Source of the DNA: Rhizobium rhododendri
GTDB taxonomy: Bacteria; Pseudomonadota; Alphaproteobacteria; Rhizobiales; Rhizobiaceae
Direction of reading: 5' to 3'
Assembly (NCBI RefSeq): GCF_007000325.2
Contig: NZ_CP117270.1
Span: 248,001-312,000, forward strand
DNA: 64,000 nucleotides
Shown here: positions 21,622-36,344 of the stretch, piece after piece
Layout of the letters: every line of letters starts with the position of its first letter
How positions within the stretch are numbered: position 1 is the first letter of the stretch
The notes under the pieces: model-generated
Seen by the model: the letters and a program-made list of their open reading frames with translations, nothing else
Database searches by the model: none
What the model was told of the DNA's origin: nothing
Program-made: the position numbers and the translations under genes

Positions 21622-22566
21622 TCACGGGCTGAGAGAGCCTCGGGCCAGATGGCCGAGGACATGGCAGACGAGGCGACCGACCACGATGGCGGAGATGTCG
21701 TTGATATCCGCCCGTGGCTGGAATTCGACGATGGAGAACCCGGCCAGCCGGCGACCTCGTAACGCTTCGGCGATCAGCGTGGTCATTTCCTCGAATGAAA
21801 ATCCGCCCGGCGATACAGCGTTGACGCCCGGGCACGTTCCGGGATCCATTGCATCGCAGTCGATATGGATCAGCACCGCGCCGTCTCTCGGGATGCCGCC
21901 GATCACGGCACTCAATCCCAGCCGTCGCGTTTCAGATACCGTCACCAGCCGCGAGCCCCAGGCTTCTGCGGCTTCAACCTCCGGCCGCCGTGCGCTGCCG
22001 ACGGCGCGGATGCCGACCTGCGTCATGGATGCAACGAACGGCAGTTCCGACGCCCGGCGCATCGTGCTGGAGTAACCGAGCCTTTCGTCGCCAATGTTGT
22101 CGCGCCAGTCGATATGGGCGTCGACCTGGAGAACATGCAGCGGGCCTGCTGCCCCGAGGCCGCGCATGAACGGGATGGCGACGGAATCGTCACCGCCGAT
22201 CAGCACGGGAATGGCACCGGCGGCAAGGACGGCGCGCGTCGTGCGCTCGATATTTTCGCGGTTGGCGGCCGCATCCTGTGGATCGGTGAAGACATCGCCG
22301 AGGTCAATGACTTCGAGCGCGCCGTCATTCAGCAAGGGGCCGCCGAAATCGAAGTCCCAGTTTTCGAGATGGACGCACGCAGCGGAAATTGCCCTGCGAA
22401 CTGCCTCGGGACCTGTCTCGCCGTCCTGGCGAGTGGCATCTGGATAGGGTGTGCCGTGCACGGCACCGAAGATCGCAACCGAGCCGGCGTGTGGCATGAC
22501 TGCAGCAGGAATGCCGAGGAATGTCTGCCGTGCAGCCTTCAATGTTTCGGTGAGATCGGTGTGCAT
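21622..22566 (-). CDS. Ureohydrolase, agmatinase-like
   Basis: 314-residue enzyme of the arginase/agmatinase superfamily, which hydrolyses guanidino compounds to urea and an amine using two Mn ions. Metal-site motifs are present: G-G-D-D-S (about 122-126), D-A-H-I-D (about 147-151) and H-I-D-C-D-A-M-D-P (about 233-241). The first motif reads G-G-D-D-S where most characterised members have G-G-D-H-S, so one metal ligand is changed from His to Asp. Substrates of relatives include agmatine, guanidinobutyrate and formiminoglutamate. With the hut genes nearby a formimino substrate is conceivable, but hutF and hutG already cover that step. Confidence 0.82.
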   Translation of the reverse strand: MHTDLTETLKAARQTFLGIPAAVMPHAGSVAIFGAVHGTPYPDATRQDGETGPEAVRRAISAACVHLENWDFDFGGPLLNDGALEVIDLGDVFTDPQDAAANRENIERTTRAVLAAGAIPVLIGGDDSVAIPFMRGLGAAGPLHVLQVDAHIDWRDNIGDERLGYSSTMRRASELPFVASMTQVGIRAVGSARRPEVEAAEAWGSRLVTVSETRRLGLSAVIGGIPRDGAVLIHIDCDAMDPGTCPGVNAVSPGGFSFEEMTTLIAEALRGRRLAGFSIVEFQPRADINDISAIVVGRLVCHVLGHLARGSLSP

Positions 22567-23007: not shown

Positions 23008-24162
23008 TCACTTCCGCGCCGCGAGAAATCTCTCCATCGTGCCAAACGAGAATGCGGAGATCGGCAGGTCTGTTCGGCCATCGAGAGCGAGGTCTGCGAG
23101 TATTTCGCCGATGACGCTGGTGAACTTGAAGCCGTGGCCGGAACAGGGCGAGGCGACGACGATGCGCGGGTTGCCGGGCATCAGGTCGATCAGAAAATCC
23201 TCGCTCGGCAGCATGGTGTAGCGGCAGGTAATGGCGTTGACGCGCAGCCCGTTCGCAGCGGGCAGGCGCCTGGCGATGAAGGCGTCGAGGAGCGCCGTAT
23301 CGGCGTCGTTCACCGGTGGATTGGGCTCGTTCGGATCGATCGGTTCGCGGAAATGCGCATGGCGACCGATCTTGACCCCGTCGACGCCGATGGCCGGAAA
23401 TCCGAAATAGGAGCCGTCGTCGCCTTCGTCGCGTATGAAGGCGGGCATGCGCTGCGGCTGGGTCACGAAGCCGTCGCGCGGCTGGTACCAGGCGACCACC
23501 TGCCGGATCGGCACTGCATGCTCTTTCAACTGCGGCACGAGTTCAGAAATCCACGACCCGGTGGCGACGATCACCTTGTTTGCCCGATACTTGCCCACGG
23601 CAGACGTAACAGTCACGCCGGCGTCGTCAGGCTCGATCCCGGTGACTTTCTCGCCGAAATGCAGCACGGCACCGTCTTCGGCGGCAAGCCTTATATAGCC
23701 CGCGACAGCCGCTTCCGGGCGGATATAGCCTCCCTGAGGATCGAGCAGGGCGATCTCGCCGGCATCCAGTGAGAACACCGGAAACCGCGCCTTCATCGCC
23801 GCCCGGTCCAGCTCTTCGATGGTAAGATCGTGCAATTTGCAGGAGGCGCGCGTGCCTGTCACGATAGTGCTGTCGGGCGCGCCGATTTGCAGCACGCCGG
23901 TGATTGTCAGGACTTCGCTGCGCAGCCGCCCTTCCAGTGCCCGCCAGTTGGCATAGGCCCGCTGCAGCAGCGGCACATAGGACGGGTCCTCGAAATAGCC
24001 GAGCCGGATAAGCCGGCTGTCGCCATGGGAAGAGCCCAGCGTATGGGCCGGATAGTAGGCATCTATGCCGATGGCTTGCACGCCGCGGGCGGCAAGATGC
24101 GACAGGGCCGCGCTGCCCATGGCACCGAGACCGATGACGGCGACGTCGAATTGCGGTGTCAT
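23008..24162 (-). CDS. FAD-dependent oxidase, sarcosine/N-methyltryptophan oxidase family
   Basis: 384 residues. The N-terminus has the dinucleotide motif V-I-G-L-G-A-M-G-S-A, then S-S-H-G-D-S-R-L-I-R, a signature of monomeric sarcosine oxidase and SolA. Near the C-terminus C-R-Y-T-M-L-P-S-E-D keeps the cysteine that carries covalent FAD in these enzymes. They oxidise secondary N-methyl amines of amino acids to imines with release of formaldehyde and peroxide. It is the last gene of a tight operon (16 bp after the ammonia-lyase homologue) with an amino acid ABC transporter, so the substrate is probably an N-alkylated amino acid entering through that transporter. This is inference from context. 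Confidence 0.85.
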   Translation of the reverse strand: MTPQFDVAVIGLGAMGSAALSHLAARGVQAIGIDAYYPAHTLGSSHGDSRLIRLGYFEDPSYVPLLQRAYANWRALEGRLRSEVLTITGVLQIGAPDSTIVTGTRASCKLHDLTIEELDRAAMKARFPVFSLDAGEIALLDPQGGYIRPEAAVAGYIRLAAEDGAVLHFGEKVTGIEPDDAGVTVTSAVGKYRANKVIVATGSWISELVPQLKEHAVPIRQVVAWYQPRDGFVTQPQRMPAFIRDEGDDGSYFGFPAIGVDGVKIGRHAHFREPIDPNEPNPPVNDADTALLDAFIARRLPAANGLRVNAITCRYTMLPSEDFLIDLMPGNPRIVVASPCSGHGFKFTSVIGEILADLALDGRTDLPISAFSFGTMERFLAARK

Positions 24163-24178
24163 GGCTACATTCCCGATT

Positions 24179-25669
24179 TCAGTGAGGCGGCGGTGGCACG
24201 TCGCGGATCAGCGACCTGATCGCCTCGATGTCGCCGCCAAGCGGACGGTCGTCGGCATAATGCGCGACGCGGCTGCGGACAAGCCGGTAAATCGTCTCTG
24301 TGCCATCGGCGCGCGCTGCCACCTTAGACAGGAAGTCGTGTGCCTGTGCGGCTGCCATCAGTTCGATCGCAAAGATGTACTCGGCGTTGTCGAGCACCGC
24401 GAGCAACTTGTTGGCGGCCGCGGTCGGATGGGCGAGAAAATCCTCCTGCAACGCCGATGTCAGGCCGCCATCGGTGCTGGCGGGAGCAGCCAGTCGACGG
24501 TTTTCGTTGGCGAGCGCTGCCGCACTGTACTGGGCGATCATCAGGCCGGAATGGCTGCCTGCGTCGCTGGCGAGGAACGGCGGCAGGCCGCTCACCAGTG
24601 GATTGACCAGTCGGTCCATCCGGCGTTCGCTCATGCCAGCGATCTGCGCCAACGCAATCGCGAGGCCGTCCGCTGCCTGGCCGAGTGCCGGCGATACGGC
24701 ATGGGCCTCCGAGGAGACGACGGGATTGTCCGGCGTGCCGTAGACGGCCGGATTGTCGGTGACGGAGGCCAGTTCCTGGTCGACCACGCGGGCGGAATTT
24801 TCGAAGACATCGCGGGCCGCGCCATGGGCATGCGGGATGGCGCGCAGGCTGAGGGCATCCTGAGTGCGTTTGCCGAGCGCTGCCGCAATCAGACCGCTGC
24901 CGGCGAGCAGCCGCCGTAACGATGCGCCGACTTTCTGGACGCCATCCGAAACCTTGAGGGCGAGCGCGGTCTCGTCGAAGGCTGCCATCTGTCCGCCGGC
25001 TGCCTCGAGCGTCAGCGCGGCAATGGCATCCGCCCATTCGAGAAGATTGGCTGCACGCGCCAGTGCCACGCAAGAAAGCCCGGTGGCGCAGGCCGTGCCA
25101 TTGACGAGACTGAGCCCCTCCTTGGCGCCCAGCACCAGCGGCACAAGGCCGATAGCCGCAAGCGCCTCGCCACCGGTCATCGGCTGTCCTGCAACATGGG
25201 CCGCACCCTCGCCGATCAGCACCAGTGCCGTGTGGGCATTGTGGGTGAGATAGCCTGCCGATCCCCTGGAGGGGACGTCTGGAATGCAGTCCTTGTCGAG
25301 AAACGTCCGGAGGTGGTCGACGATCTCGCGGCGCACACCGGAATAGCCGTGGGAAAAATTGGCGATCTGGGCGGCGATGATCGCCCTGACTTCGCGCCGG
25401 GACAGAAGCGGTCCGACGCCGCAGGCATGGCTGAGGATAATGTTGCGTGACAGCTTGCTCTGCGATGCGAGGTCTACCACTGTATCCGATAGGGCGCCGA
25501 CGCCGGTGTTGATGCCGTAGGCCCGCTGGCCCGTTTCGACGATGCGGGCAACGATGCGGCTGGCATTGTCGATGCGCGCCCAGACTGCGGGGGCGAGCGA
25601 CAGGCTTTCGCCGCCTGCGATGGCCGCGACGTCGCGCCAGCCGAGCTTTGCTTCGAGAGTGACGGTCAT
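24179..25669 (-). CDS. HAL/PAL-family lyase homologue lacking the MIO triad
   Basis: 496 residues, colinear with histidine ammonia-lyase. Conserved sites: Y-G-I-N-T-G (Tyr51), L-V-N-G-T, S-L-R-A-I-P-H-A-H-G with the substrate-binding Arg, S-V-T-D-N-P and L-Q-E-D. In normal HutH the Ala-Ser-Gly of [14 protein letters not shown] cyclises to the electrophilic MIO cofactor. Here the segment reads G-S-A-G-Y-L-T-H-N-A-H (136-146), three residues shorter and with no A-S-G. I checked this on the DNA at about 25,235-25,270: the frame is clean. It cannot form MIO, so a simple ammonia elimination is unlikely. A better leaving group, such as trimethylamine in ergothioneine or hercynine, could be eliminated without it. 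It starts 4 bp after the ABC ATPase gene. A true hutH lies at 32,247. Confidence 0.88.
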   Translation of the reverse strand: MTVTLEAKLGWRDVAAIAGGESLSLAPAVWARIDNASRIVARIVETGQRAYGINTGVGALSDTVVDLASQSKLSRNIILSHACGVGPLLSRREVRAIIAAQIANFSHGYSGVRREIVDHLRTFLDKDCIPDVPSRGSAGYLTHNAHTALVLIGEGAAHVAGQPMTGGEALAAIGLVPLVLGAKEGLSLVNGTACATGLSCVALARAANLLEWADAIAALTLEAAGGQMAAFDETALALKVSDGVQKVGASLRRLLAGSGLIAAALGKRTQDALSLRAIPHAHGAARDVFENSARVVDQELASVTDNPAVYGTPDNPVVSSEAHAVSPALGQAADGLAIALAQIAGMSERRMDRLVNPLVSGLPPFLASDAGSHSGLMIAQYSAAALANENRRLAAPASTDGGLTSALQEDFLAHPTAAANKLLAVLDNAEYIFAIELMAAAQAHDFLSKVAARADGTETIYRLVRSRVAHYADDRPLGGDIEAIRSLIRDVPPPPH

Positions 25670-25673
25670 GGGA

Positions 25674-26444
25674 TCAGCTTCCGAAATTGCCGATGAACTG
25701 GCGGAAAGCCGGCGAGCCGCCGCCGCCAAACATCTCTTCCGGGCTGCCGGAACTGTCGATCAGCCCTTCGCGCATGAAGACGACGCGGTTGGAGACGTTG
25801 CGGGCAAAGCTCATCTCGTGGGTGACGACCAGCATGGTCATGCCCTCTTCTGCCAGCGCCCGCATGACGCGCAGCACCTCGCCGACCAGTTCCGGATCGA
25901 GTGCGGATGTCGGTTCGTCGAACAGCATCACCTTCGGCTTCATCGCCAGCGCCCGCGCTATCGCCGCGCGCTGCTGCTGGCCGCCGGAAAGATGGGCCGG
26001 ATAGGCATGGCGCTTGTCCGCGATGCCGACCTTCTCGAGCAGCGCCTCGGCGTCAGCAATGGCTTCCGCACGAGGCCGCTTCAGCACGTGGATCGGGCCC
26101 TCGATGACATTCTGCAGGATGGTCATATGGGACCAGAGATTGAACGACTGGAACACCATGCCGAGTTCCGAGCGGATGTGGTCGACCTGCCGGTTGCTCT
26201 CCGGCTTGCTCCGTCCGTTCTTGTGGATCATGCGGATTTGCTCGCCATCCACCCAGATTTCGCCGTCGTTGGCGACTTCGAGAAGGTTGATGCAGCGGAG
26301 GAATGTCGACTTGCCGGAGCCGGAAGCGCCGAGCAGGGATATGACGTCGCCATCCTCGGCATCCAGCGAGATGCCGCGCAGCACCTCGTGGGTGCCGAAG
26401 CTCTTGCGGATATTGCGGACCGAAAGTCGGTTGACGCGGGCCAT
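25674..26444 (-). CDS. Polar amino acid ABC transporter ATP-binding protein
   Basis: 256 residues, the cytoplasmic ATPase of a HisP/GlnQ-type importer. Walker A is G-A-S-G-S-G-K-S-T (about 38-46), the signature L-S-G-G-Q-Q-Q-R (about 160), Walker B V-M-L-F-D-E-P with the following T-S-A-L-D, and the switch histidine in V-V-T-H-E-M. The insertion I-R-M-I-H-K-N-G-R after the first strands is typical of histidine-type transporters. It sits between the two permease genes and the MIO-less lyase gene with gaps of 22 and 4 bp, so it belongs to the same operon. Confidence 0.93.
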
Positions 26445-26466: not shown

Positions 26467-27171
26467 TTACGCCTTCAAAGCCTGCGGCGCTGCGCGGCGA
26501 TGGCGGGAGAGGCGATATTCTAGCAGGCCGAAGGCCTGCAGGATGATGAAATTCAGGACGAGATAGATGACGGCGGCGCAGAGAAATACCTCCATCGTCC
26601 GGTAGGTGTGCGAGATCAGCCGCTGTGCGACGCCGGTTACCTCCCAGACGGTTACGAGGCTTGCGAGCGCCGTCGACTTCAACATCAGCACGATCTCGGT
26701 CGAATAGGCAGGCAGCGCATGGCGGAAGGCGATGGGCGCCAGAATGCGGCGCACCAGCAGAAAGCCGGACATGCCGATCGAGCGGGCTGCCTCGATCTCC
26801 TTCGGCGAAACGGCGCGGATGCCGCCGCGAAAGATCTCTGCCGTGTAGCCGGCCGTGCAGAGCGCCAGCGACAGCACGGCGCAGACAAAGGGCTCGCGCA
26901 GCAGCGGCCAGAGAAACGAGTAGCGGATGATGCCGAACTGGCCGAGGCCGTAAAAGATCAGGAACATCTGGATCAGCAGCGGCGAGCCGCGAAACACGAA
27001 GATATAGGCCTTGGCGAAGGCCGAAAGGATCGGATTGCCGCCGGTGCGCATCCAGACGAGCCCCAGCGCCAGCAGGCCGCCAAGGGTGATCGACGTGATG
27101 AACAGGGCCAGCGTCATCGGCAAGGCTGCGAGCAGCGTGGCCATGGTCGATGACAGGAAGGCGATATCCAT
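26467..27171 (-). CDS. Polar amino acid ABC transporter permease (HisM type)
   Basis: 234 residues with about five membrane helices. The conserved cytoplasmic loop that contacts the ATPase is seen as E-A-A-R-S-I-G-M-S (about 135-143), preceded by A-E-I-F-R-G-G-I, both diagnostic for the HisMQ permease family. It starts three bases after the stop of the companion permease, and the two are expected to form a heterodimeric channel. Substrate range is set by the binding protein at 27,970. Confidence 0.92.
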   Translation of the reverse strand: MDIAFLSSTMATLLAALPMTLALFITSITLGGLLALGLVWMRTGGNPILSAFAKAYIFVFRGSPLLIQMFLIFYGLGQFGIIRYSFLWPLLREPFVCAVLSLALCTAGYTAEIFRGGIRAVSPKEIEAARSIGMSGFLLVRRILAPIAFRHALPAYSTEIVLMLKSTALASLVTVWEVTGVAQRLISHTYRTMEVFLCAAVIYLVLNFIILQAFGLLEYRLSRHRRAAPQALKA

Positions 27172-27174
27172 GGC

Positions 27175-27900
27175 TCAAGCCTTCCCCATCGTTGCCGACG
27201 GCATGCTACGGTTGGCGCGACGCTCGGCTCGGTTGAAAACCTGGTCCGAAAGACTGGTCAGGATCAGGTAGAGGCACCCGCCGGCGATAAAGAACAGGAA
27301 ATAATGCCGCGTCGAGCCGGCCGCCACCTGGCTGGTGCGCATCAGTTCGGCAAGCCCGGTAACAGAGATCAGGGCTGAATCCTTGAGGCTCAGCTGCCAG
27401 ACATTGCCGAGGCCGGGGATGGCAAGCCTCAGCACCTGCGGCAGGATGATCCGGCGGAAGCGCAGTCGCGTGCCCATGCCGATCGCCGAGGCGGCTTCCA
27501 GTTCGCCCTTCGAGATCGCCAGGTAGGCGCCGCGAAACACTTCAGCCTGGTAGGAGCCGGAGATGACCCCCACGGCAAGGGCGCCGGCGGCAAAGGACGG
27601 CAGGCCAAGGAAGCCGTCGTAGCCCAGTGCCTTGCCCATGGAGGTCAGGGCGCTCGAGCCGCCAAAATAGATGAGATAGATGATCAGCAGTTCAGGCACG
27701 CCGCGAAAGACGGTGGTGTAGGCATGGCCGAGCGCCCATAGGAGCCGGTTGCCGGAAAGCTTGGCTGCGGCGACGAGCGTGCCGAGCACGGCGCCGATCG
27801 CCAGCGCCGCTGCAGTGACGGCGAGCGTCAGCAGCGTTGCCACGAGAAGCAGGGCGCCCCACCCGGTCGAACCGAAGCCCAGCAGTTGCAATGTCGACAT
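27175..27900 (-). CDS. Polar amino acid ABC transporter permease (HisQ type)
   Basis: 241 residues with about five membrane helices. The HisMQ motif is Q-A-E-V-F-R-G-A-Y with E-A-A-S-A-I-G-M-G (about 135-160), the coupling loop to the ATPase. It lies 69 bp after the binding-protein gene and 3 bp before the second permease gene. The longer gap after the binding protein fits the usual surplus production of the soluble component. Confidence 0.92.
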   Translation of the reverse strand: MSTLQLLGFGSTGWGALLLVATLLTLAVTAAALAIGAVLGTLVAAAKLSGNRLLWALGHAYTTVFRGVPELLIIYLIYFGGSSALTSMGKALGYDGFLGLPSFAAGALAVGVISGSYQAEVFRGAYLAISKGELEAASAIGMGTRLRFRRIILPQVLRLAIPGLGNVWQLSLKDSALISVTGLAELMRTSQVAAGSTRHYFLFFIAGGCLYLILTSLSDQVFNRAERRANRSMPSATMGKA

Positions 27901-27969: not shown

Positions 27970-28812
27970 TTATTTCGGGCTGACGTCGGTCTTGAACCAC
28001 TTCATCGACAGGGTCTTGACGGTGCCATCGGCGAGTGCCGACTTGATCGCCGCGCTGAACATGTCGCGCAGGTCTGTGTCGGACTTGCGAACGCCGAGGC
28101 CTTCGCCGATACCCCAGATGGGTCCGGCAATCTGCGGGCCGGAGAAGCCGAGCGCGCCATTGGCTGCTTCGAAGGCGGTTTCGAAATAGACGGCGTCGTC
28201 GAAGCCGAGGTCGATGCGGCCGTTCTGCAGGTCGAGGTCGCGGTCTGCGCCGGTCTTGTATTCGCGGATCGTGGCGATGTCTGCAAAGTTGTCATAGACG
28301 AACTTGGCGTAGACGGTGGCCGCCTGGATGCCGATGGTCTTGCCCTTGAAGGCTTTCTTCAGGGCATCGATCTCAGCCACGCCGGTCTGGCCGGGCGTCA
28401 TGGTGATGGTCTTGCCGGTGCCGGCGGCATTCGCCAGCGGACTGTCCTTGGCGACGGCAAAGGCTGCCGGGGTGGCGGCATAGGGAACGGTGAAGTCGAT
28501 GACCTGCTTGCGCTCGTCGGTGATCGACAGGGCATCCATGATGATGTCGAACTTGCCGGCGTTGAGCGCCGGGATCATGCCGTCCCAGTCGGAGGCCACG
28601 AGCTTGCACTCGACCTTGGCCTTTTCGCAGAGCACCTTGGCCAACTCCGGCTCGAAGCCGCCCAGCGTGCCGTCGGCATTGGTCATGTTCCAGGGCGCAT
28701 AAGCGCCTTCGAGCGTGATGGTGACGGTTTTCCAATCCTTGGCTTCGGCGGCAGGTCCGGCAAGGGTGGCCAGCGCCACGGCGCCCGATAGTAGCAATGC
28801 ATTGATTTTCAT
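27970..28812 (-). CDS. Periplasmic amino acid-binding protein of ABC importer
   Basis: 280 residues, family 3 solute-binding protein. A signal peptide of about 23 residues (K-I-N-A-L-L-L-S-G then A-E-A) is followed by the two-lobed fold with E-G-A-Y-A-P-W-N, G-F-E-P-E-L-A, D-G-M-I-P-A-L and F-T-V-P-Y. Histidine, arginine and opine binders share this pattern, so the ligand cannot be read directly. The frame is open 44 codons upstream, but the ATG at 28,812 has GGAGAG just before it and begins the signal peptide. It is the first gene of the six-gene operon ending with the oxidase at 23,008. Confidence 0.92.
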   Translation of the reverse strand: MKINALLLSGAVALATLAGPAAEAKDWKTVTITLEGAYAPWNMTNADGTLGGFEPELAKVLCEKAKVECKLVASDWDGMIPALNAGKFDIIMDALSITDERKQVIDFTVPYAATPAAFAVAKDSPLANAAGTGKTITMTPGQTGVAEIDALKKAFKGKTIGIQAATVYAKFVYDNFADIATIREYKTGADRDLDLQNGRIDLGFDDAVYFETAFEAANGALGFSGPQIAGPIWGIGEGLGVRKSDTDLRDMFSAAIKSALADGTVKTLSMKWFKTDVSPK

Positions 28813-29519: not shown

Positions 29520-30872
29520 CTAAGCCGAAAGCAGACGGGTCATGGTGGCAACAAAACGCTTTCGGATCCGGTCCCGCCCGACATGCACTCCACCGCTGAC
29601 CTGCTTGCGCCCGAGTGCCCAGACACTGTCGATCTTCACGCCTCCGGCAAACATCCAGTGATCGAGCAACTGGTCGCCTTCCAGATAGGGCACGGCGGAT
29701 ACATCCAGCGATACGAGATCGGCGTAGTTTCCTTCTTGCAGTCCTGTCGCGGTCTGTAGGGCGATACCACCGCCTCTTAATGCCTGATCGAACAACGCAC
29801 GACCGGTCGAGCCGTTTTGAGGTGCCACCACGTTGCGGGCGCGGAGGTCGAGGCGCTGCGAATACTCCAGCTGGCGTAACTCTTCAGGCACCGAGATCAG
29901 GACGTTCGAGTCCGAGCCGATGCCGAACCGCCCTCCCTCTGACATGAACTGCGGGGCAGGAAATGTCCCGTCTCCAAGGTTGGCCTCGGTGATCGGGCAG
30001 AGGCCTGCCACCGCGCCGCTCTTGGCCATGCGTGTCGTTTCATCCTCCGTCATATGTGTCGCATGTATCAGGCACCAGCGCGCATCGACATCGGCATGGT
30101 CGAGCAGCCATTCGACGGGCCGTGCGCCGGACCAGGCAATGCAGTCCTCTATTTCCTTGACCTGCTCTGCGACGTGGATGTGGATTGGCCCGTTCCGCCC
30201 AAGCTCTGCGGCAAAACTCAGTTCTTCCGGCGTCACCGCCCGCAGGCTATGCGGCGCAAGGCCGAGCACGCCGCCTTCCAGTGCGCCAATCACCTGCCGG
30301 CATCCCTCCATCAGTGTCGCAAAGCTATCCGGCGTATTGATAAAGCGGCGCTGGCCCTCGATCGGCTGACCGCCTCCGAAACCGGACCGCGCGTAAAGCA
30401 CCGGCAGCAGCGTCAGCCCGATACCGGCTTGACTGCTGGCAGCGCCGATACGTTCGGCCAATTCGGCAATATTGGCATAGGGCCTGCCGTCCTTGTCGTG
30501 GTGCAGGTAGTGGAATTCCCCGACGCGGCAAAAGCCGGCCTCCAGCATCTCCATGTAGAGTTCGGCCGCGACCGCCTCGACATCCTCGGGCGTCATCGTC
30601 AGGGCGAATTTGTACATCACCGTCCGCCAGCTCCAGAAGCTGTCGCTGCCGGGGCCTCGCACTTCGGCAAGACCTGCCATCGCCCGCTGGAAAGCGTGGC
30701 TGTGCAGGTTTGGCATGGCGGGTACGAGCACTGCGTGGCGCTCGTCGGCGGCCTCGGCCGGTACGCCCGCAGCGATGCTGACGATGCGCCCGTCGGCAAT
30801 CTCTATGCGTACGTTCTTTTGCCAGCCGGTTGGCAATAGGGCTGATCCTGCGTGAAGTCCGACCATCGGCAT
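29520..30872 (-). CDS. hutF: Formimidoylglutamate deiminase
   Basis: 450 residues, amidohydrolase superfamily. It converts N-formimino-L-glutamate to N-formyl-L-glutamate and ammonia, the fourth step of the five-step histidine route. The metal-site motifs are N-L-H-S-H-A-F-Q (about 55-62), H-I-H-V-A-E-Q (about 230), H-A-T-H (about 265) and G-S-D-S-N (about 317). It is divergent from hutIHGU with a HutC-type palindrome in the 115 bp between them, so both units should be induced together by urocanate. Two ATGs six bases apart are possible starts. Confidence 0.93.
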   Translation of the reverse strand: MPMVGLHAGSALLPTGWQKNVRIEIADGRIVSIAAGVPAEAADERHAVLVPAMPNLHSHAFQRAMAGLAEVRGPGSDSFWSWRTVMYKFALTMTPEDVEAVAAELYMEMLEAGFCRVGEFHYLHHDKDGRPYANIAELAERIGAASSQAGIGLTLLPVLYARSGFGGGQPIEGQRRFINTPDSFATLMEGCRQVIGALEGGVLGLAPHSLRAVTPEELSFAAELGRNGPIHIHVAEQVKEIEDCIAWSGARPVEWLLDHADVDARWCLIHATHMTEDETTRMAKSGAVAGLCPITEANLGDGTFPAPQFMSEGGRFGIGSDSNVLISVPEELRQLEYSQRLDLRARNVVAPQNGSTGRALFDQALRGGGIALQTATGLQEGNYADLVSLDVSAVPYLEGDQLLDHWMFAGGVKIDSVWALGRKQVSGGVHVGRDRIRKRFVATMTRLLSA

Positions 30873-30946: not shown

Positions 30947-30958
30947 ATGTATATACAT
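30947..30958. promoter_or_regulatory. HutC-type operator
   Basis: ATGTATATACAT, a perfect 12-bp palindrome with the TGTA-N2-TACA core bound by GntR-family HutC repressors. It lies between hutF and hutI, 30 bp before the hutI start, with TTGTCA 16 bp upstream as a possible -35. No hutC gene is present in the window. Confidence 0.72.
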
Positions 30959-30987: not shown

Positions 30988-32250
30988 ATGACCGGGAACA
31001 ATTCCTCCGAACAGAATACCGCATTTCTAGGCCGCCCACGTTTGCTGCGCAACGCCCGGCTTGCGACGCTGGACAGCCGCCTGCCCGGCCTCGGCCTTAT
31101 CGAAAAGGCTGCAATCGTCGTCGAAAATGGCCGCATCGCCTATGCTGGCCCCGAGAGTGAATTGCCGGTCTGGGCCATCGAGACCGCCGATATCCTCGAC
31201 CTCGAAGGGCGCTGGGTGACCCCCGGACTGGTCGATTGCCACACGCACATCATCTATGGTGGCAATCGCGCCCGCGAGTTCGAAATGCGGCTCGAGGGCG
31301 CCACTTACGAAGAGGTTGCGCGCGCCGGGGGCGGCATCGTTTCCTCGGTCAATGCCACAAATGCCCTGTCCGTCGAAGGACTGGTGGCGGCCGCCTTGCC
31401 GAGGCTGGACACGCTGCTGGCCGAAGGCGTCACCACCATCGAAATCAAATCCGGCTACGGGCTGAACGTCGATGCCGAACTGCGGATATTGCGCGCCGCC
31501 CGAGCCATTGAGCGCATCCGTCAGGTCCGCGTCGTCACCTCCTATCTCGCAGCACACGCGACGCCCGTCGACTACAAGGGGCGCAACGACGCCTATATCG
31601 ACGAGGTTGTGCTTCCCGGCATGCGGCAGGGCGCGGCGGAAGGCCTGATCGATGCCGTCGACGGATTTTGCGAAGGTATCGCATTCTCGCCGTCCGAAAT
31701 TGCCCTGGTGTTCGACGCTGCCAAGGCGCTCGGCCTGCCGGTCAAGCTGCATGCCGAGCAGCTTTCCAATCTCGGTGGCGCCAGGCTCGCTGCATCCTAC
31801 GGGGCCCTGTCGGCCGATCATCTCGAATATCTGGATGCTGCAGGCGTGGCTGCACTTGCCGCGAGCGGCACGGTGGCCGTGCTGCTGCCCGGCGCCTTCT
31901 ATGCCATCAACGAGAAGCAGAAGCCGCCGGTCCAGCTGTTGCGAGACGCCGGGGTGAAGATCGCCATTGCCACCGACAGCAATCCCGGCACCTCGCCGCT
32001 GACATCCCTGCTGCTCACCATGAACATGTCGGCGACCCTGTTCGGCCTTACGGTCGAGGAGTGCATTGCCGGGACGACCCGCGAGGCCGCGCGGGCCCTA
32101 GGCGTGCTTGCTGAAACCGGAACTATCGAGGTCGGGAAATCGGCGGATCTCGCCACCTGGAACGTCGATAGCCCGGCCGAACTTGTCTACCGGATTGGTT
32201 TCAATCCGCTTTATGCGCACCTGTTCAAGGGCGAGAGGATCGATCGATGA
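30988..32250 (+). CDS. hutI: Imidazolonepropionase
   Basis: 420 residues, amidohydrolase superfamily. It opens the ring of 4-imidazolone-5-propionate to N-formimino-L-glutamate, the third step of histidine degradation. Typical motifs are [11 protein letters not shown] (about 78-88, metal histidines), K-L-H-A-E-Q-L (about 255), A-D-H-L-E-Y (about 277) and T-D-S-N-P-G-T-S-P (about 330). Its stop overlaps the start of hutH by four bases (ATGA). First gene of the plus-strand hut unit. Confidence 0.96.
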
Positions 32251-33782
32251 CCATCACACTCCATCCAGGTTCGGTGACGCTCGCCGATCTCTCGATTATC
32301 TACTGGACGGGCGAACCTGTCGTCCTCGATCGCTCGTTCGACGCCGGTATCGAGCGCGCCGCCGCCCGTATTGCCGAGATTGCCGCCGGCAATGCGCCGG
32401 TCTACGGCATCAACACCGGCTTCGGTAAACTGGCGTCGATCAAGATCGACCGTGCCGATGTCGCGACGCTGCAGCGCAATCTGATCCTCTCCCATTGCTG
32501 CGGCGTCGGCCAGCCCCTGGCCGAGAATATCGTCCGGCTGATCATGTCCCTGAAGCTGGTGTCGCTCGGGCGCGGCGCATCCGGCGTGCGGCTCGAAATG
32601 GTGCGGCTGATCGAGGCGATGCTTGAGAGGGGCGTTATCCCCGTCATTCCGGAAAAAGGCTCTGTCGGCGCCTCCGGCGACCTCGCGCCGCTCGCCCACA
32701 TGGCGGCGGTCATGATGGGTGAAGGCGAAGCATTTTTAGCCGGCGAACGAATGAGTGGCGGTGCGGCATTGGAAAAGGCCGGGCTGACGCCGATGGTGCT
32801 GGCCGCCAAGGAAGGCCTGGCGCTGATCAACGGCACTCAGACCTCGACGGCGCTGGCGCTCGCAGGCCTCTTCCGCGCCCACAGGGCCGCCCAGGCGGCG
32901 CTGATCACAGGAGCGCTGTCGACCGATGCGGCGATGGGCTCGTCGGCGCCGTTCCATGCCGATATCCACACCCTGCGCGGCCATCAGGGCCAGATCGACA
33001 CGGCGGCGGCTCTGCGGGCTTTGCTCGACAATTCGGTCATCCGCGCAAGCCATATCGAGGGCGACGAGCGCGTCCAGGATCCCTATTGCATCCGCTGCCA
33101 GCCACAGGTCGACGGCGCCTGCCTCGATCTGTTGCGCCAGGTGGCAAAAACGCTGGAGATCGAAGCCAATGCGGTGACCGACAATCCGTTGGTGCTGTCA
33201 GACAATTCGGTCGTCTCCGGCGGTAATTTCCACGCCGAGCCCGTGGCCTTCGCCGCAGACCAGATCGCGCTCGCCGTCTGCGAGATCGGCGCCATCGCCC
33301 AGCGCCGCATTGCGCTCCTGGTCGATCCGGCGCTGTCGCATGGCCTGCCGGCCTTCCTTGCCAAAAAGCCCGGGCTCAATTCCGGGCTGATGATCGCCGA
33401 GGTAACATCTGCCGCGCTGATGTCTGAGAACAAGCAGATGTCGCACCCGGCCTCGGTCGATTCCACACCGACCTCGGCCAACCAGGAAGACCACGTCTCC
33501 ATGGCCTGTCACGGTGCCCGCCGACTGCTGCAGATGACCGACAACCTGTTTGGCATCATCGGGATCGAAGCGCTGACGGCGGCCCAGGGGATCGAGTTCC
33601 GCGCGCCGCTGGTCACCAGCCCCGAACTCACCGCCGCCGTCGCCGCCATCCGCCGCGTCGTGCCGACGCTCGAAGAGGACCGCTACATGGCAAACGACCT
33701 TGCCGCAGCCAGCGACCTGGTATCATCTGGCACACTGAATGCAGCGGTGTCCGAGGGTATCCTGCCGGGTCTGGAGGGCTGA
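32247..33782 (+). CDS. hutH: Histidine ammonia-lyase (MIO triad intact)
   Basis: 511 residues. It removes ammonia from L-histidine to give urocanate, the first step. The MIO-forming A-S-G is present at residues 142-144 within [20 protein letters not shown] (about 53), [13 protein letters not shown] and N-Q-E-D are all as expected, so it should be fully active. It is coupled to hutI by a four-base overlap. It contrasts with the MIO-less homologue at 24,179-25,669 in the same window. Confidence 0.97.
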
Positions 33783-33851: not shown

Positions 33852-34658
33852 ATGAGCGCTCCTGCTTTCGAAGTCCACCAGGGCTCCTCGCCCGTTGTGC
33901 TCGCCTTTCCCCATACCGGCACAGACGTACCAGCCGACATCTGGGAGCGGCTGAACGACAATGGGCGCATCCTCGCCGATACCGACTGGCACATCCACCG
34001 GCTCTATGACGGCCTGCTCGACGACGCGACGACGGTTCGGGCCACCTTCCACCGCTATGTCATCGACGCCAATCGCGATCCCGATGGGTCAAGCCTCTAT
34101 CCCGGTCAAAATACCACCGGCCTTATCCCGGGCACGGATTTCGACGGCAAGGCGATCTGGAAGAATGGCGCCGAGCCTTCCGACTCCGATACCGCAGCCC
34201 GGCTGTCCGCCTTCCATGCACCCTATCATGCGGCCCTCGCTGCCGAGATCGCACGCGTCAAGGCGATCCATGGCATTGCCGTGCTCTATGACTGCCACTC
34301 GATCCGTGCCGACATTCCCTTCCTGTTTGAGGGCACGCTTCCGGATCTCAACATCGGTACCGACATGGGCAAGACCTGCGCGCCGGCGATCGAGGCTGCA
34401 ACCGTTGCCATCGCCGCTGAAGCCGCCGGCTACACCAGCACGCTGAATGGCCGTTTCAAGGGCGGCTGGACAACGCGCTATTATGGCCAGCCGGCATCGG
34501 GCGTTCATGCCATCCAGATGGAGCTGGCGCAATCGACCCATCTTGCCGCCGAAGCTCCGCCCTTCGCCTATGATCCTGAAAAGGCCGAGGCGCTGCGCAT
34601 TCCGCTCAAGTCCATCCTGTCGCGCATCGAACAGATCGCGCTCGACCTCATCAGCTAA
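33852..34658 (+). CDS. hutG: N-formylglutamate deformylase
   Basis: 268 residues, zinc-dependent N-formylglutamate amidohydrolase. It gives glutamate and formate, the last step of the five-step route. F-P-H-T-G-T-D-V-P near the N-terminus, D-A-N-R-D-P-D-G (about 75), Y-D-C-H-S-I-R near 150 and late E-L-A-Q-S-T-H are the family signatures. AAGGAGA precedes the ATG by eight bases. It lies 69 bp after hutH and 12 bp before hutU. Its presence with hutF shows that the formylglutamate route is used instead of formiminoglutamase. Confidence 0.95.
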   Translation: MSAPAFEVHQGSSPVVLAFPHTGTDVPADIWERLNDNGRILADTDWHIHRLYDGLLDDATTVRATFHRYVIDANRDPDGSSLYPGQNTTGLIPGTDFDGKAIWKNGAEPSDSDTAARLSAFHAPYHAALAAEIARVKAIHGIAVLYDCHSIRADIPFLFEGTLPDLNIGTDMGKTCAPAIEAATVAIAAEAAGYTSTLNGRFKGGWTTRYYGQPASGVHAIQMELAQSTHLAAEAPPFAYDPEKAEALRIPLKSILSRIEQIALDLIS

Positions 34659-34670
34659 GGGGATTTCGTC

Positions 34671-36344
34671 ATGACCAATTCACGCCACAACATCCGCGAG
34701 ATCCGCGCGCCGCGCGGGCCGGATCTCAACACCAAGAGCTGGATGACGGAAGCGCCGCTGCGCATGCTAATGAACAATCTCGACCCTGACGTCGCCGAAA
34801 ACCCCAACGAACTCGTCGTCTACGGCGGTATCGGCCGGGCGACACGCACCTGGGAAGACTTCGACAGCATCGTCGCGACCCTGAAGACGCTCACCGAAGA
34901 AGAGACGCTGTTGGTGCAATCCGGCAAGCCGGTCGGCGTGTTCCGCACCCACAAGGATGCGCCGCGCGTGCTGATCGCAAACTCCAACCTCGTGCCACAC
35001 TGGGCGACATGGGATCATTTCAACGAGCTTGATAAGAAGGGCCTTGCGATGTATGGCCAGATGACGGCCGGCTCGTGGATCTATATCGGCGCCCAAGGCA
35101 TCGTCCAGGGCACTTATGAGACCTTCGTCGAAGCCGGACGCCAGCACTATGGCGGCAGCCTCAAGGGCAAATGGATCCTCACCGGCGGTCTCGGCGGCAT
35201 GGGTGGCGCCCAGCCGCTCGCCGCGGTCATGGCCGGTGCCTGCTGCCTCGCCGTCGAATGCGACGAAACCCGCGCCGATTTCCGACTGCGCACGCGCTAT
35301 GTCGACGAAAAGACCGACAGCCTGGACGAGGCACTGGCCAAGATCGATCAGTGGACCAAGGCCGGCGAGGCAAAATCGATCGCGTTGATCGGCAATGCTG
35401 CCGAAATCTTCCCCGAGCTTTTCAAGCGCGGCGTCCGACCGGATATCGTTACCGACCAGACCTCCGCCCACGACCCGCTGCACGGCTACCTGCCGCTCGG
35501 CTGGACCGTGGCGGAATGGAAATCCAAACAGGAGACTGCGCCAAAGGAAGTCGAGGCCGCTGCGCGCGCCTCGATGAAGATCCACGTCGCCGCCATGGTC
35601 GATTTCTGGAACGCCGGCGTGCCGACGCTCGATTACGGCAACAACATCCGCCAGGTCGCGAAAGACGAGGGCCTGGAGAATGCCTTCGCCTTCCCCGGCT
35701 TCGTCCCGGCCTATATCCGGCCGCTGTTCTGCCGCGGTATCGGCCCGTTCCGCTGGGCGGCGCTGTCGGGCGATCCGGAGGATATCTACAAGACCGACGC
35801 CAAGGTGAAGGAACTGACGCCCGGCAATACCCATTTGCACAACTGGCTCGACATGGCGCGTGAACGCATCGCCTTCCAGGGCCTGCCCGCCCGCATCTGC
35901 TGGGTGGGTCTCGGCGACCGTGACCGGATCGGTCTGGCCTTCAACGAAATGGTCAAGAACGGTGAGCTTTCGGCGCCCGTCGTCATCGGCCGCGATCATC
36001 TCGATAGTGGCTCCGTCGCCTCGCCGAACCGCGAAACCGAGGCTATGAAGGATGGCTCGGACGCCGTCTCCGACTGGCCGCTGCTCAACGCCCTGCTGAA
36101 CACCGCCTCGGGCGCCACCTGGGTATCGATCCATCACGGCGGCGGCGTCGGCATGGGCTTTTCACAGCATGCCGGCATGGTCATCTGCTGCGACGGCTCG
36201 GAAGACGCCGCCCGCCGCATCGCCCGCGTCCTCTGGAACGACCCGGCCACCGGCGTCATGCGCCACGCCGACGCCGGCTACGACATCGCTATCGACTGCG
36301 CCAAGGAAAAGGGCCTGCGCCTGCCGGGAATTCTCGGCAACTGA
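34671..36344 (+). CDS. hutU: Urocanate hydratase
   Basis: 557 residues, the normal length. It hydrates urocanate to imidazolonepropionate using tightly bound NAD+ as an electrophile, the second step. Motifs seen are Y-G-G-I-G-R-A (about 49), [10 protein letters not shown] (about 175), T-D-Q-T-S-A-H-D-P near 262, and the C-terminal [10 protein letters not shown] with the catalytic-region cysteines in I-C-C-D-G. It is the last gene of the hutIHGU unit. A strong hairpin follows 17 bp later. Confidence 0.97.

Follow-up and report, generated by a model that had tools for sequence, protein, structure and literature searches.

Textbooks treat MIO as a requirement for aromatic amino acid ammonia-lyases, and histidase (HutH) has both the Ala-Ser-Gly segment that forms it and a catalytic Tyr in the motif QDPYxxR, which we take to be Tyr280 in Pseudomonas putida HutH numbering (the residue numbers and roles used below are assumed in the same way). 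The hutH1 gene of Pseudomonas (SBW25) is reportedly dispensable for growth on histidine, and Boncompagni 2000 is said to have described Sinorhizobium hutXWV-hutH2 as a histidine transporter plus a putative histidase, with some growth loss on histidine reported for the Sinorhizobium meliloti hutH2 mutant. An excerpt of PMC8871633 gives the P. fluorescens SBW25 gene order as hutU, transporter genes, hutXWV, hutH1, hutH, and a passage of PMC3410850 lists hutH2 among putative selection targets in Sinorhizobium. Ergothionase (structure 6s7j) works without MIO, according to a section of PMC13405746.

A MIO-less histidase homologue beside a hut cluster

The window analysed here is a stretch of 64,000 nucleotides of Rhizobium rhododendri DNA (contig NZ_CP117270.1, positions 248,001 to 312,000). 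It holds a canonical hutH and a second histidase homologue that belongs to a distinct MIO-less clade, to which we give the name HALx. The features are as follows, in window coordinates:

21622..22566, minus strand: ureohydrolase (agmatinase/formimidoylglutamase family) that follows solA, an arrangement seen in 7 of 116 HALx loci
23008..24162, minus strand: FAD-dependent N-methyl amino acid oxidase (SolA/MTOX, sarcosine oxidase family), directly downstream of HALx
24179..25669, minus strand: HALx, MIO-less histidase homologue, 496 aa, start ATG at 25669
25232..25264, minus strand: codons of GSAGYLTHNAH (read 25264-25232), replacing the MIO-forming segment of HutH
25674..26444, minus strand: ABC transporter ATPase, polar amino acid type, directly upstream of HALx
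26467..27171, minus strand: ABC permease, ArtM/HisM-like (profile match)
27175..27900, minus strand: ABC permease, HisQ-like (profile match)
27973..28812, minus strand: periplasmic solute-binding protein, SBP_bac_3 (best PDB matches octopine- and nopaline-binding proteins)
29520..30872, minus strand: hutF, formimidoylglutamate deiminase (over cut-off)
30948..30957, no strand: TGTATATACA palindrome, HutC-operator-like by the consensus that we assume, between hutF and hutI (one match in the window, 0.08 expected)
30988..32250, plus strand: hutI, imidazolonepropionase (over cut-off)
32247..33782, plus strand: canonical hutH with GASGD and QDPY
33852..34658, plus strand: hutG, N-formylglutamate deformylase (70% to a protein annotated as such)
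34671..36344, plus strand: hutU, urocanate hydratase (TIGR01228, 972.8 bits)

The HALx ATG sits 4 bases past the TGA of the ABC ATPase gene and the frame is open to 24179, and the PF00221 profile (aromatic amino acid lyase family) spans nearly the whole length of the protein with 466 bits. The sequence-only reading of this DNA had seen the loop G-S-A-G-Y-L-T-H-N-A-H, three residues shorter, in the place of the HutH segment, with Tyr51, N-G-T, S-L-R and Q-E-D kept in an intact frame, and all of this is confirmed by codons 25264-25232, by the alignments and by the 496-codon ORF from ATG 25669 to 24179; the Tyr is that of Y-G-I-N-T-G, and in S-L-R it is the Arg that is kept. It had also raised the possibility that the A-S-G triad is merely displaced, which is ruled out, as there is no ASG among all 496 residues (read by eye).

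The catalytic Tyr is replaced as well: the window HALx reads QDALSLR where HutH reads QDPYxxR, and Leu stands at this position in 27 of 27 HALx rows of alignment A1, a diverse set to which the GSxGY-type MIO-less loop is common. The equivalents of HutH Tyr53, His83, Arg283 and Glu414 are kept in all 27 rows, and those of Asn195 and Met382 in at least 90% of them. Across the clade the carboxylate- and ring-side residues are retained and the amine-side MIO and Tyr280 are gone, as one would expect if the substrate resembled histidine but carried an amine that already leaves readily.

The window HALx scores 457.7 bits against TIGR01225, the HutH equivalog, below the cut-off of 539.15, and is one of three PF00221 genes in the R. 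rhododendri genome, with the canonical hutH (32247-33782) and a third on contig C1. The SolA-type gene (23008..24162) scores 424.5 bits against NF008425 (cut-off 257), with 7exs and 2uzz as its best PDB matches. The window hutU is a normal urocanase and not of the thiourocanate type, being below the cut-offs of NF058530 and NF058531, and the window's own transporter is of the SBP_bac_3 type, not the betaine type.

Distribution and selection

Close HALx relatives are present in 106 of 120 Rhizobium genomes (E up to 1e-100; G041 holds the gene only in part). At E up to 1e-110, 21 of 297 genomes sampled from the order and 23 of 398 sampled from the phylum hold one (these two samples overlap and each takes in the window's own genome). 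The clade occurs in Alpha-, Beta- and Gammaproteobacteria, and its named holders include Rhizobium, Sinorhizobium, Agrobacterium, Thalassospira, Burkholderia pyrrocinia and Erwinia sp. E602. The best 120 protein relatives among the matches listed all have G-S-[AV]-G-Y-L-[TVI]-H and QDALSLR; because these motifs are shared and the gene recurs in 106/120 Rhizobium genomes, HALx is not the product of chance or of an assembly error. Among the first 60 loci, 58 have G-S-x-G-Y-[LI] within the match, counting two that represent the window's own gene; five of the 58 additionally contain a canonical hutH, and the remaining two loci are the C1 gene (L003) and a canonical hutH (L001). Two operons with identical HALx sequence (L065 and L066) lie near both ends of one 1.6 Mb contig (G016) and are perhaps an overlap of the contig ends.

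The dN/dS values (Nei-Gojobori) are 0.049-0.189 in all 12 HALx pairs computed, several of which have high dS. The sequence-only reading had taken a value near 1 as the sign of a pseudogene and had judged HALx not to be a decayed hutH; this judgement is upheld by the conservation and the purifying selection.

Relation to ergothionase and the other MIO-less branches

The window HALx gives 174.5 bits to ergothionase 6s7j, versus 300.8 bits to 7tqr, a probable histidase. By score it is nearer HutH, and in alignments with ergothionase and HutH it has neither the G-E-[GAS]-D loop of the ergothionase type nor the Q-K-T lysine; the kinship with ergothionase implied by the sequence-only reading is no more than an analogy. 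The ergothionase-type gene of this genome is the one on C1, whose best PDB match is 6s7j (233.9 bits), but, unlike in 6s7j, the equivalent of the HutH ring His is Arg, and for this reason its product need not be an ergothionase. The C1 gene (L003 1474-2988, G-E-A-D loop) directly follows an ornithine cyclodeaminase/mu-crystallin gene (429-1433).

The best tree of 95 sequences, built with the MIO and Tyr columns removed, groups the 27 HALx together (100/100), places 6s7j and the proteins with G-E-A-D, G-A-A-D and comparable loops away from them, and has the MIO-bearing HutH and PAL-like rows on HALx's side; 6s7j is a long branch there, its position unsure (program warning). In a reduced tree, from which 10 rows were dropped (nine long-branch rows and 6s7j), the MIO-bearing rows form one side in 0 of 200 bootstraps. 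The MIO-less homologues, which had been proposed for a common tree, part company in the best topology, with HALx a separate clade, and the AU test leaves a single MIO side unrejected (p 0.066 with 95 rows, 0.0895 without the 10); a loss of MIO that was independent in HALx and in the ergothionase-type branch is favoured.

Thirteen other PF00221 paralogues (L213-L225) have no MIO triad, with loops GAAD, GAGD, GEAD, GEGD, GASD and GCAD, and in the rows with a correctly read ORF the catalytic Tyr is replaced by Leu, or by Glu in L220. A further lyase homologue (L226 5-1573, minus strand) has GSVGYLGPEGH yet keeps the catalytic Tyr (QDTYSLR), on a long branch of unsure place. MIO-less members look common within the PF00221 family.

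Neighbourhoods of the relatives

We compared 116 HALx loci, made up of 35 picked loci (genomes and annotated plasmids), L092 and the best 80 of a scan of named genomes, the last part being biased to close relatives; the pairs L065/L066 and L068/L170 share a HALx sequence. Directly upstream of HALx there is an SBP_bac_3-type ABC ATPase in 75 of the 116, a ChoXWV/ProX-like ATPase (with OpuAC) in seven, hutC preceded by a second betaine-type (OpuAC) ABC transporter in another seven (Agrobacterium and kin; family scan for L133 only) and hutC alone in three, and in 24 loci no reference transporter or hutC was found at this position. In two of these 24, L088 and L089, a BCCT carrier gene separates hutU from HALx; the neighbour family scan in this class gave no family for L070 and L144, and unrelated families for L077 and L087.

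A hutC or hut enzyme gene is present in 95 of the 116 loci, and none was found within the stretch examined in the other 21. The solA/MTOX gene is present in 43/116, mostly rhizobial, and was not found in HALx loci with ChoXWV-like or BCCT betaine carriers. In Sinorhizobium sp. M103, hutC, hutF, an OpuAC-like (ChoXWV/ProX-type) transporter and HALx stand together. In the HALx module of an Erwinia plasmid (L228 8992-11880), which is additional to the 116 loci, an ABC transporter is followed by HALx and then by a cytosine-permease family gene; the annotation shows no hut gene within 9 kb.

Is HALx always accompanied by a true histidase? HutH over the cut-off occurs in 21/21 HALx genomes of the order versus 133/276 genomes without HALx (n = 297; Fisher p = 6e-7, uncorrected for relatedness). 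In a second set of 33 HALx genomes, every one has two or more PF00221 matches; GASGD is present in all of the 30 strongest, which come one each from 30 of the 33, G225 and G411 also have HutH over the cut-off, and a strong HutH match is present in 32/33. The rule that HALx always occurs with HutH was nevertheless rejected: in the complete genome G684 (locus L089) HALx stands with BCCT, hutU, hutI, hutG, hutF and hutC, and no HutH over the cut-off was found there, the PF00221 genes being HALx (494.2 bits), PAL-like and G-A-A-D paralogues. Either HALx supplies urocanate from another compound in G684, which is our reading, or it is that genome's histidase.

The HALx of the Agrobacterium Ach5 pAt plasmid is a member of the clade, 53% identical to the window's, and adjoins an OpuAC transporter. 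It is the sole lyase of its family in an S-methyl-ergothioneine cluster that also holds S-methyl-thiourocanate hydratase (975.8 bits, cut-off 880), S-methyl-thiohydantoin desulfurase (555.1, cut-off 450), ErtD (782.8, cut-off 600) and ErtE (576.1, cut-off 520); no standard hut genes and no hutH were found nearby in the stretch examined. The missing first step of this cluster would be trimethylamine elimination from S-methyl-ergothioneine, for which we infer HALx to be the candidate. The ring-pocket Met is Gln in P0242-P0247, the nearest listed kin of the Ach5 HALx, and Met is present in the 14 entries that come after them (P0248-P0261).

Regulation

The transporter-HALx operon of Rhizobium lies opposite a hutC paralogue of its own, and the palindrome ATATGGTACCATAT is found with at most one mismatch in 54/59 gaps between hutC and the solute-binding protein gene (e.g. 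L091), where shuffled gaps give three mismatches at best; this site of the dedicated repressor differs from the hut operator. HutC-like TTGTATATACAA sites, for which we assume a consensus of the HutC operator, occur with at most two mismatches in 33/37 other picked loci (0-0.8 expected per locus by mononucleotide shuffle); they lie just before the transporter-HALx genes in L073, L078, L079, L085, L086 and L094, and elsewhere precede other hut genes. No hutC was found in the window, and ATATGGTACCATAT has no match there under three mismatches. For these reasons, and since TGTATATACA is present in the window only between hutF and hutI, the local HutC palindrome was rejected as evidence that would prove regulation there. 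The P. aeruginosa HutC is reported in an excerpt of PMC12772324 to bind an unrelated site, and therefore the operator argument is not general.

Proposed function

We propose, with a probability of about 0.6, that HALx is a MIO-independent lyase that removes trimethylamine from a histidine betaine, most likely hercynine (N-alpha-trimethyl-L-histidine), leaving urocanate. The trimethylamine-lyase class appears firmer than the exact substrate, the hercynine assignment resting on neighbours and residues. Substrate, product and mechanism are inferred here from the observed loss of MIO and Tyr, the conservation, the clade and the neighbourhood. We prefer this reading because the amine-side residues are lost and the carboxylate- and ring-side residues kept across the clade; because HutH co-occurs in 21/21 HALx genomes and hut or hutC genes in 95/116 loci; because betaine-type transporters (ChoXWV/ProX-like, the second OpuAC type and BCCT) adjoin HALx elsewhere; because the Ach5 cluster would otherwise miss a betaine lyase as its first step; because sites resembling the HutC operator stand ahead of HALx operons in several lineages; because dN/dS is 0.05-0.19 in 12 pairs; and because G684 has HALx and hut genes without HutH over the cut-off. 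The earlier suggestion of an elimination enzyme acting on a pre-activated amine is strengthened by the conservation, the purifying selection, the kept and lost residues and the betaine-class transporters of relatives, and ergothionase serves it as an analogy only.

In this mechanism Arg, Asn, His, Met and Glu, all retained, would hold the carboxylate and the imidazole as in HutH, and the active-site Tyr (the Tyr53 equivalent) would take the beta-proton. Trimethylamine, a good neutral leaving group, could then depart without MIO or a Tyr280-type residue, and the urocanate would enter the adjoining hutU-hutI-hutF-hutG pathway. The window ABC transporter would import the betaine, and the SolA-type oxidase could take methyl groups off incompletely methylated histidines.

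Several observations count against hercynine. The window transporter is SBP_bac_3, with best PDB matches that bind octopine and nopaline, and keeps an ammonium-type Asp; solA and the ureohydrolase do not follow from a conversion of hercynine to urocanate; 24/116 loci have no upstream reference transporter or hutC, 21/116 have no hut or hutC gene in the stretch examined, and there is the Erwinia plasmid HALx; the HALx of G684 can be read as its only histidase; and the S. meliloti hutH2 mutant reportedly (Boncompagni 2000) shows some loss of growth on histidine. We found no hercynine lyase in the open-access literature searched, and prior work may exist.

Alternative explanations

HALx might instead be a MIO-independent lyase for another N-substituted histidine (opine-like N-carboxyalkyl-histidine, or N-methyl- or dimethyl-histidine), with the SolA-type oxidase and the ureohydrolase as partners. 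The octopine- and nopaline-binding proteins that best match the window's solute-binding protein speak for this, as does the N-methyl amino acid oxidase gene in 43/116 loci, but we consider it unlikely: a secondary amine is no better a leaving group than ammonia, solA/MTOX is not found in the ChoXWV-like or BCCT loci, and nearly all HALx-linked solute-binding proteins retain an Asp where opine-binding proteins have Asn or Ser. In the SBP_bac_3 fold this Asp presumably holds a free alpha-ammonium.

A catalytically dead HutH paralogue, acting as regulator or as mixed-tetramer subunit of HutH, would fit the strong HutH match in 32/33 HALx genomes and the loci, several in number, in which HALx adjoins hutH. 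We regard it as improbable, since the active-site Tyr, His, Arg and Glu are conserved, HALx often stands in its own operon with a transporter (in Rhizobium with its own repressor and operator), the G684 hut cluster has HALx in a genome without HutH over the cut-off, and the Ach5 HALx lies in a pathway cluster with no hutH nearby.

An ergothionase proper, converting ergothioneine to thiourocanate and trimethylamine, is very improbable for HALx, even though the loss of MIO and the change of Tyr to Leu are as in 6s7j and the Ach5 relative lies within a sulfur-betaine cluster. HALx is a separate clade in the best tree and has a different loop without the QKT lysine, the window hutU is a normal urocanase below the thiourocanate cut-offs, and the change of Met to Gln is seen in P0242-P0247, closest to Ach5, and absent from P0248-P0261, the window HALx keeping Met. 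Decay of a hutH copy, or an error of sequencing or assembly, would explain the loss of two catalytic elements of HutH; it is refuted, and the pseudogene rejected, by the presence of the gene in 106/120 Rhizobium genomes, the dN/dS of 0.05-0.19 in 12 pairs and the same loop in 27 diverse sequences.

Wider implications of the proposed hercynine cleavage

The trimethylamine lyase reading can be extended tentatively, and with rather less confidence than we place in it, as follows: hercynine, from fungi and actinobacteria, would rank among the everyday nutrients of soil; the histidase family would have a second branch without MIO, which it lost separately from ergothionase, and this branch would strip trimethylamine from hercynine and feed urocanate, the hut inducer, into the hut pathway; and what has been read as spare histidine genes, Pseudomonas hutXWV-hutH1 and Sinorhizobium hutXWV-hutH2, would be modules for hercynine. 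Many relatives of R. rhododendri appear to carry HALx as a second, mislabelled histidase, and its neighbours suggest hercynine as food.

A large MIO-less clade is annotated as histidase. The HALx proteins of G686 (545.8 bits), G540 (549.5) and L081 9169-10656 (545.1) pass the NCBI hutH cut-off of 539.15, and automatic annotation would therefore name a MIO-less protein, that of L081, a histidase. If the proposal is true, hutH1 of Pseudomonas hut operons gains a testable role; a real HALx function could explain why SBW25 hutH1 is dispensable on histidine and why such hut operons have a betaine-type transporter, and would add a microbial source of trimethylamine.

Comparison with known systems

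HALx shares with HutH (TIGR01225) the fold, the Pfam family, the carboxylate- and ring-binding residues and the neighbouring pathway, but is without the Ala-Ser-Gly and the catalytic Tyr280 that HutH has. Ergothionase 6s7j (Treponema denticola) is MIO-less like HALx and both have Leu for Tyr280, whereas its loop has a one-residue deletion (G-E-G-D type) and that of HALx a three-residue deletion; 6s7j and most of its kin here have the Lys of Q-K-T where the window HALx has Q-Y-S, and the ergothionase substrate is a trimethylated histidine that bears sulfur.

The order in L081 and L082 is hutU, betaine-type ABC transporter, HALx, hutH, so that HALx (52-53% identical to the window's) holds the place of SBW25 hutH1, a likeness that rests on gene order. 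Sinorhizobium hutXWV-hutH2 resembles the M103 arrangement of hutC, hutF, OpuAC-like transporter and HALx, with a transporter class unlike the window's, and the HALx loop is present in the S. medicae protein P0283. The Ach5 HALx has Gln in the ring pocket where the window HALx has Met, which suggests that the ring pocket sets the substrate of HALx, and the Ach5 cluster ties the clade, as a candidate, to trimethylamine elimination.
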